A stretch of DNA of 64,000 nucleotides, taken from contig JAGWVJ010000001.1 of the NCBI GenBank assembly GCA_018970945.1, positions 1 through 64,000 of the forward strand. Reading direction: 5' to 3'. Of the stretch, positions 45,751 through 46,999 are shown one piece after another (positions within the stretch are counted from its first letter, which is position 1; every line of letters begins with the position of its first letter). This DNA is from Cyanobacteria bacterium REEB417 (GTDB taxonomy: Bacteria > Cyanobacteriota > Cyanobacteriia > PCC-6307 > Cyanobiaceae). A model generated the notes under the pieces. The model did no database searches. It was not told the origin of the DNA and saw nothing but the letters and a program-made list of their open reading frames with translations. The position numbers and the translations under genes are program-made.

Positions 45751-45796
45751 TGCCCGGTGCCGGGTTCGAACCAGCGACATCCTGCTTGTAAGGCAG
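45751..45796 (-). repeat. Duplicate of the tRNA-Val 3' end (attachment-site remnant)
   Basis: 46 bases identical to 46928-46973, covering the anticodon arm, variable loop, T-arm and acceptor 3' strand of tRNA-Val read on the minus strand. The 5' half of the tRNA is absent here, so it is not a gene. The identity ends sharply at 45796/45797. Confidence 0.9.
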
Positions 45797-45815
45797 ACAG
45801 CCAGCCCTCGCCATA

Positions 45816-45881
45816 ACAGGGGTTTGGGCTGATTTTCCGCCTAGCGTGCGCAGATCTATGCGCACAGAGGGGGTGGCGAGG
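45816..45881. repeat. Nested inverted repeats beside the attachment site
   Basis: An outer inverted repeat CCTCGCC (in 45816-45823) and GGCGAGG (in 45874-45881) surrounds a perfect 7-bp stem GTGCGCA/TGCGCAC with loop GATCTA (45846-45865). It lies between the tRNA duplicate and the hepT stop. No T-run follows on either strand, so it is not a typical terminator; it could be an integrase arm site or the original end of the element. Confidence 0.45.
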
Positions 45882-45945
45882 GTCGATCCGTGCCCAGGGA
45901 GCGATGTACCCCCTGGGGTCTACGGCTTCAGACCAGGCACCCCAA

Positions 45946-46302
45946 TCACGGACTTTGCGACAAGCGATCAAGCAGCTGGCTGCAGTGCTTCACGAGTTCC
46001 GGCAGATCGGCCTGGATCGCGCCCCAGACGACCCGGTCGCTCACCTTGATGTACTCGTGGGTGAGCAGGTTCCGAAAGTCGATGATCTGCCTGCCCTCCG
46101 GGATGGCAGCGAAAAGCTCAGGATCCCGTTGCGCGATCACCCGGAGCGCCTCGCCGATGATCGTGAACTCCCGCTCCACGGCCGAACGAATCAGACGAGT
46201 GCTGGTGTAAGTGGCTTCGTCAATGGCGCCGGTGGCCTCCTGGATGGCTGCCGCCGCCTCCAGGATGTCGCTTAGGTAGGCGCTGGGATCACGCGGCGGC
46301 AT
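45946..46302 (-). CDS. hepT: HepT-like HEPN toxin (DUF86)
   Basis: 118 residues from ATG 46302. Compact helical HEPN fold. The catalytic motif RX4HXY is exact: RNLLTHEY with R77, H82, Y84. In characterised HepT proteins this is an RNase centre, and the Tyr is poly-AMPylated by MntA to neutralise it. The start overlaps the mntA stop by 14 bases. Located in the tRNA-Val island. Activity is inferred from the family. Confidence 0.88.
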   Translation of the reverse strand: MPPRDPSAYLSDILEAAAAIQEATGAIDEATYTSTRLIRSAVEREFTIIGEALRVIAQRDPELFAAIPEGRQIIDFRNLLTHEYIKVSDRVVWGAIQADLPELVKHCSQLLDRLSQSP

Positions 46303-46603
46303 AGATCTCGCGCTTGCTGGCTTCGATCGACTGCCGGATGTAGGGGTTGCGCACGGCATCCTCCATAACCAGGTCAACCCGAGAGGCCAGGCTCTGCCGG
46401 AGATCGTTGAGCAACGCGAAGTAGGTCTTGTAAAGGCTGGAGGCGTCTAGCGGCTGGAACTCCACCAGCAGGTCGATGTCGCTCTCCCCTGGCCGGTAGT
46501 CGGCCCGCAGCACCGACCCAAAGGCATGCAGGCGTGCCACGTGGTGGCGCTTGCAGGCAGCGGCGATGGCGTCGAGCTCGGGCTGGGCAAGGGAAACGCT
46601 CAT
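46289..46603 (-). CDS. mntA: MntA-like nucleotidyltransferase antitoxin
   Basis: 104 residues from ATG 46603 (ATG 46612 adds three). Nucleotidyltransferase motif FGS...SDIDLLVEF: G29-S30 and D42-I-D44, spaced by 11 residues instead of the classical 10. The third acidic ligand is probably in SRVDLVMED. MntA AMPylates HepT. The mntA-hepT order is the usual one, unlike the HEPN-first pair at 1.5 kb. Confidence 0.88.
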   Translation of the reverse strand: MSVSLAQPELDAIAAACKRHHVARLHAFGSVLRADYRPGESDIDLLVEFQPLDASSLYKTYFALLNDLRQSLASRVDLVMEDAVRNPYIRQSIEASKREIYAAA

Positions 46604-46927
46604 AAACCCCATTGTGCTCCGATCTACAGGGCAGCGACCAGCCGTTGGTCGCCGCCCCGGAGCTTTCCCGCCAGGCCAAGCCGCTGCAGGATCCTTCCCA
46701 CCTGAGCGGGGGCCAAGGGCTTGCCAGTGCTGCTGACCTTGCCCGCCCCGGCAAGAGCCTGATCCATCGCCCGGTGGCTCATACCTGCGGCCACCATCGG
46801 CGCCGTGGGTGCCTGCCTTAACCAGTACGCACACGTTCGCACAGGCGCCATATCAAGCGTGATCACATCGCATCAAGCGTCTCAGAGCATTCTCCGAGAA
46901 CACTTGGCAGCACTGGGAAAAAGTCGA
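46604..46927. other. Debris region between mntA and tRNA-Val
   Basis: 324 bases inside the island. A minus-strand frame at 46624-46866 would encode 80 residues with SSTGKPLAPAQVGRILQRLG, faintly like HTH segments of phage antirepressors, but it is not convincing. The mntA promoter should lie here. No integrase fragment is recognisable. Confidence 0.4.
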
Positions 46928-46999
46928 TGCCCGGTGCCGGGTTCGAACCAGCGACATCCTGCTTGTAAGGCAGGCGCTCTACCGCTGAGCTAACCGGGC
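46928..46999 (-). tRNA. trnV-UAC: tRNA-Val, anticodon UAC
   Basis: 72 bases on the minus strand. Acceptor stem GCCCGGT/ACCGGGC with discriminator A; D-arm with GCTCAGCGGTAGAGC; anticodon stem CCTGC/GCAGG around loop CTTACAA, giving anticodon TAC; T-arm GGTTCGAACC. CCA is not encoded. Its 3' end faces the MntA/HepT island. Its 5' end is only 4 bases from the start of the 47004 gene on the other strand, so the tRNA promoter must lie within that gene's first codons. Confidence 0.96.

Follow-up and report, generated by a model that had tools for sequence, protein, structure and literature searches.

The 1.2-kb interval between the tRNA-Val(UAC) gene and a displaced copy of its 3' end, within the 64,000-nt stretch of DNA analysed here (the window), is very probably a CIME-like deletion derivative of a tyrosine-recombinase island of the type found at the same tRNA gene in two relatives (G202 and G144). 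Between the repeat and the tRNA this island holds an apparently intact MntA/HepT toxin-antitoxin pair together with recombinase remnants. The source is an uncultured cyanobacterium of the Cyanobium/Synechococcus family, represented by a draft MAG of 1.96 Mb (78.6% complete), and the homologous loci that carry names belong to Cyanobium, Synechococcus, and related cyanobacteria. The following features define the ends of the island:

44540–45748, plus strand: renalase-like FAD/NAD(P)-binding protein (Pfam NAD_binding_8), the left chromosomal neighbour
45751–45796, minus strand: distal attachment-site repeat (attR), consisting of the 3' 46 nt of tRNA-Val(UAC)
46928–46999, minus strand: intact tRNA-Val(UAC), the integration target (ARAGORN; Rfam 72.2 bits), with the attL core at 46928–46973

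The direct repeat is exact (45751–45796 and 46928–46973, 100% identity, spacing 1177) and far above chance; no other direct repeat longer than 28 nt occurs in the surrounding 7 kb, and the 28-nt one is only 79% identical. The perfect 46-base copy in direct orientation to the intact tRNA, reported in the preliminary description, is confirmed in both coordinates and identity. The interval thus has the intact tRNA and the displaced fragment of the same end, in the same orientation and on the correct side, that characterize tRNA islands, but not a tyrosine integrase gene of its own, of which a start-region remnant alone is left. Neither promoter nor terminator patterns were detected within the island. 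ARAGORN calls the left copy (45750–45822) a second tRNA-Val, which is an annotation trap. This sequence begins in the anticodon stem and its acceptor pairs are broken; because its score of 27.7 bits falls under the Rfam cut-off of 29 and the acceptor stem is mispaired, we consider it a tRNA 3' fragment and rejected a second functional tRNA at this position.

The stop of the renalase-like gene lies 2 bases from the distal repeat. In the congener G004, the renalase gene has the same final bases (TTTGAAG), followed by the same 2-base gap and then by a tRNA-Val fragment, also of 46 nt, which has one base different and its endpoint at the same base as the window repeat. The similarity between the two genomes breaks exactly where the repeat ends, and the G004 interior past this point is unrelated to that of the window and carries a Nif11 leader-peptide gene. 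The same repeat endpoint combined with a different interior implies that different elements integrated site-specifically at a single position, and not that a duplication occurred. Judged by these comparisons, the 1.2-kb interval is the footprint of a tRNA island rather than a segmental duplication. A local segmental duplication of the tRNA end, involving no mobile element, could also generate a 46-nt tRNA fragment, but it is contradicted by the G004 endpoint with its different interior, by the many islands found at tRNA-Val and by an integrase remnant at the expected place (see below), and appears extremely improbable. The tRNA-targeted integration proposed initially was therefore borne out. 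Insertion polymorphism among relatives is provided by the different G004 interior, and neither of the situations named beforehand as fatal to the proposal (the same interval with a diverged second repeat in all relatives, or a local duplication without insertion polymorphism) was encountered: G004 differs at the same junction and the second repeat of the window is undiverged. By contrast, none of the 30 renalase loci inspected had the predicted empty site, in which the renalase-like stop would directly adjoin an intact tRNA. Within the same genus, the tRNA contig of G005 ends 1.9 kb away with no renalase on it, and G003 has a renalase end without the repeat. The G004 island at this tRNA-Val junction (L131, contig C14, 6199–7551) encodes a Nif11-like RiPP precursor peptide. 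Its contig stops inside the island, 1.3 kb beyond the junction, and the full island is not visible.

We compared the downstream side of tRNA-Val in about 60 genomes of the family. Fragments of the tRNA-Val 3' end lie 1.1–12.8 kb from the tRNA at 10 of the ~60 loci, the window included (12.8 kb in G115, 10.0 kb in G207, 9.6 kb in G093, 8.2 kb in G208, 5.8 kb in G063, 5.7 kb in G279, 5.1 kb in G028, 2.7 kb in G040, 1.14 kb in G188 and 1.18 kb in the window; the G279 and G188 copies are degenerate). The larger islands at the same tRNA, for which a search had been suggested, therefore exist, with sizes from 2.7 to 12.8 kb. A tyrosine recombinase adjoins tRNA-Val in G115, G207, and G093, whose islands have the second repeat, and also in G202, G144, G066, G102, and G285, for which a second repeat was not found in the stretch retrieved. 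Among the 14 best loci, whose integrases share no less than 43% identity with the G202 enzyme, tRNA-Val(UAC) lies within 1.5 kb in eight and tRNA-Arg in two. Throughout this family of Cyanobium/Synechococcus-type cyanobacteria, tRNA-Val(UAC) appears to be a hot spot for integration. Pfam gives no match at E 0.01 for the integrase beside tRNA-Val in G202 and G144 (L149 and L118), which matches an NCBIfam tyrosine recombinase model only weakly; its neighbour encodes a protein of 1030–1130 codons with at most a sub-threshold ResIII match. G188 carries a second tiny relic island (L065), with 1142 bp from the degenerate repeat to tRNA-Val and a broken Fic/DOC-family gene (Fic_N, E=2e-20).

The part of the window island next to the tRNA retains traces of recombination genes:

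46802–46927, minus strand: tyrosine integrase upstream and start remnant, fused to the serine recombinase tail (75% DNA identity to G202, 70% to G144)
46624–46804, minus strand: truncated serine recombinase, last ~57 codons only (77% amino acid identity to residues 228–284 of a full-length Resolvase-family protein, PF00239, L111/L112)

The 125 bp beside the tRNA, mostly non-coding, have a counterpart at the same position at tRNA-Val in G202 and G144, where an intact 419-codon integrase frame follows. Their alignment scores are 109 (G202) and 79 (G144), against 25–29 for the best of 300 shuffles, and the ATG common to G202 and G144 is ACG in the window. An 80-codon reading frame (46624–46866) is a fusion in which the similarity changes from the integrase region to the serine recombinase at about 46802. 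The full-length serine recombinases present in G109, G065, and other genomes share 77–83% protein identity with the window tail, whose stop lies about 20 bases ahead of mntA. The fusion of an integrase start-region remnant to a serine recombinase tail implies that an integrase was once present and then deleted. The preliminary description had seen only a toxin-antitoxin pair and debris without integrase. The pair and the missing integrase stand, the latter in that no integrase domain was detected by Pfam in any island ORF tested; the debris, however, is not featureless, as it includes integrase and serine-recombinase remnants, and these lend support to the deleted element that had been offered as one option.

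The toxin-antitoxin pair occupies the middle of the island:

45946–46302, minus strand: hepT, HEPN ribonuclease toxin of 118 aa with an RX4HXY motif (RNLLTHEY; PF01934, E=1.4e-17; NCBIfam HepT under the equivalog cut-off)
46289–46603, minus strand: mntA, MNT-domain adenylyltransferase antitoxin of 104 aa with a GSX11DXD motif (PF01909, E=6e-10; NCBIfam MntA under the equivalog cut-off; PADLOC PDC-S09, E=1e-28)

The two genes overlap by 14 nt. Class I HepT/MntA systems have RX4HXY in HepT and GSX10DXD in MntA (PMC7641770). Like them, the window has adjacent PF01934/PF01909 genes and the HepT motif; unlike them, its MntA, as well as the homologues listed for it, has a motif one residue longer, and both proteins score below the NCBIfam equivalog cut-offs. 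The dN/dS of the pair (0.10–0.15) implies that it evolved under selection. Its closest copy is found in another genus (G194), where mntA lies 128 bp from tRNA-Val with 84% DNA identity, and MntA/HepT are more alike between the window and G194 than the flanking genes are (91% protein identity for MntA, 69% for a nearby DUF2227 protein). The serine-recombinase tail precedes mntA in both, with only its last stretch left in G194. The G194 hepT is frameshifted upstream of the RX4HXY motif (L061, 15200–15555), which, together with the lack of a second repeat, suggests that the relic has decayed further there. G194 and its congeners differ by 3.4 kb at tRNA-Val, but we did not take this as proof of insertion: the P-type ATPase within the segment also adjoins the same neighbour in another genus, so that loss may account for the difference. 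The source genome also contains a second mntA homologue, more distant (68% DNA identity), at another place (G000, contig C32, 2764–3218). We found no MntA in viral contigs and only distant matches (<60%) in plasmids.

Short motifs close to both ends of the island are candidates for integrase binding:

45846–45867, plus strand: putative right arm-type site GTGCGCAGATCTATGCGCACAG (19 of 22 bases, ungapped, in common with the G028 island)
46825–46843, minus strand: putative left arm-type sites TGTGCGTAC and TGTGCGAAC

The right motif shared by the window and G028, GTGCG(C/T)AGATCT(A/G)TGCG(C/T)ACAG, has an offset of 49 from the distal core end in both, and GTGCGNA motifs occur beside the tRNA at nearly equal distance in the window, G202, G144, and G028. 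These GTGCGNA-type motifs may be integrase arm sites, a reading made after the motifs had been seen; their counts across the whole window are not above chance and only their clustering and offset at the island ends are unusual. A test for 9-mers shared between the ends of the window island gave a negative result. The islands of G115, G208, and G279 (L076, L173, and L174) seem to have short repeats of their own near both ends (CCTGGTAAA, TTTTGCGCG, and CCGGGGGAA), perhaps the arm sites of their own integrases, although only those of G279 exceeded their null.

The sequence shows that an element entered tRNA-Val(UAC) by recombination within the anticodon-stem region, so that the tRNA was restored and a 46-nt 3' fragment came to lie at the distal end of the element. 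Its integrase gene, adjacent to the tRNA as in the relatives that have kept theirs, was subsequently lost; what is left is 125 bp from the upstream and start region, fused to the last 57 codons of the serine recombinase, next to mntA-hepT. The toxin-antitoxin pair may have been retained by selection or addiction while the rest disappeared, HepT presumably acting as a ribonuclease that MntA silences by adenylylation. An ancestor with the integrase, a full serine recombinase and mntA-hepT together was not found in family, order or viral searches. The abrupt junction between the integrase remnant and the serine recombinase tail would also fit the ancient boundary of an island in which homologous recombination repeatedly exchanged the interior, mntA-hepT having arrived via the serine recombinase or by chance and not as tRNA-island cargo. 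The mntA-hepT homologues located at about 30 other loci without adjacent tRNA-Val or serine recombinase agree with such a scenario, which we nevertheless find unlikely given that G194 has this module, serine-recombinase tail included, at the same tRNA.

That recurrence bears as well on a further scenario, in which the deletion preceded transfer and the integrases of other islands moved the 1.2-kb unit, by then an integrase-less mini-island, from genome to genome. Two genera have the serine-recombinase tail-mntA-hepT module next to tRNA-Val, with greater similarity in it than in the flanking genes; in addition, the two cores match perfectly, and putative arm sites exist at both ends. Against this, G194 has neither the second repeat nor the integrase remnant and its hepT is frameshifted, the window remnant sits where an integrase was lost in place, and the same MAG (78.6% complete) yielded no full G202-type integrase; we regard movement in trans as quite improbable. 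It is likewise very doubtful that the unit is still a mobile satellite spreading the toxin-antitoxin pair between genera with the help of the integrases of full-size tRNA-Val islands. If the window island is instead a deletion derivative, as we favour, its later excision by a related integrase, or its fusion with the incoming element, is conceivable because both att cores and the putative arm sites survive.

Decayed tRNA islands are a known kind of element; here, the deletion scar is readable. CIMEs keep their att sites and lose their recombination genes; those of S. salivarius measure 1.2–13 kb, and the gene-less microCIMEs 130–220 bp (PMC7563491), so that the suggestion that the window island is among the smallest of its type does not hold. 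Like the streptococcal CIMEs, the window relic kept both att sites (its perfect 46-nt cores) and cargo and lost its recombination genes, and the integrase remnant and truncated serine recombinase point to deletion from a larger integrative element. It differs from them in standing alone and not in tandem, and in its probable parent, a tRNA-Val island of cyanobacteria for which no conjugation module is known; none of the few parent-type proteins scanned was recognised as belonging to a relaxase family. The relic fits the CIME class by its retained ends and lost integrase, its conjugative or mobilizable parent being only putative. Similarly, the ssrA islands of Dehalococcoides lie between a tRNA-like gene and its 3'-end repeats, and some without integrase have been proposed as CIMEs (PMC3146451). 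The window island is also bounded by a tRNA and a 3'-end repeat and integrase-less, whereas the Dehalococcoides islands use serine recombinases and form tandem arrays. The tycheposons of Prochlorococcus (Hackl et al. 2023), as described in PMC10872708, are likewise cyanobacterial tRNA-integrated cargo islands with tyrosine recombinases, a likeness by description only, and their size is given there as 4–200 kb, compared with 1.2 kb for the window relic.

The Islander catalogue admits only islands of 2 kb or more that have an integrase (PMC4383910), rules that would have hidden the window island. Because candidates below 2 kb or without integrase are left out, small integrase-less islands are probably undercounted. 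The islands of the tRNA-Val(UAC) hot spot use an integrase that Pfam does not recognise, and in the window the decay of such a tRNA island to a toxin-antitoxin remnant, with both ends intact, can be followed at base resolution.
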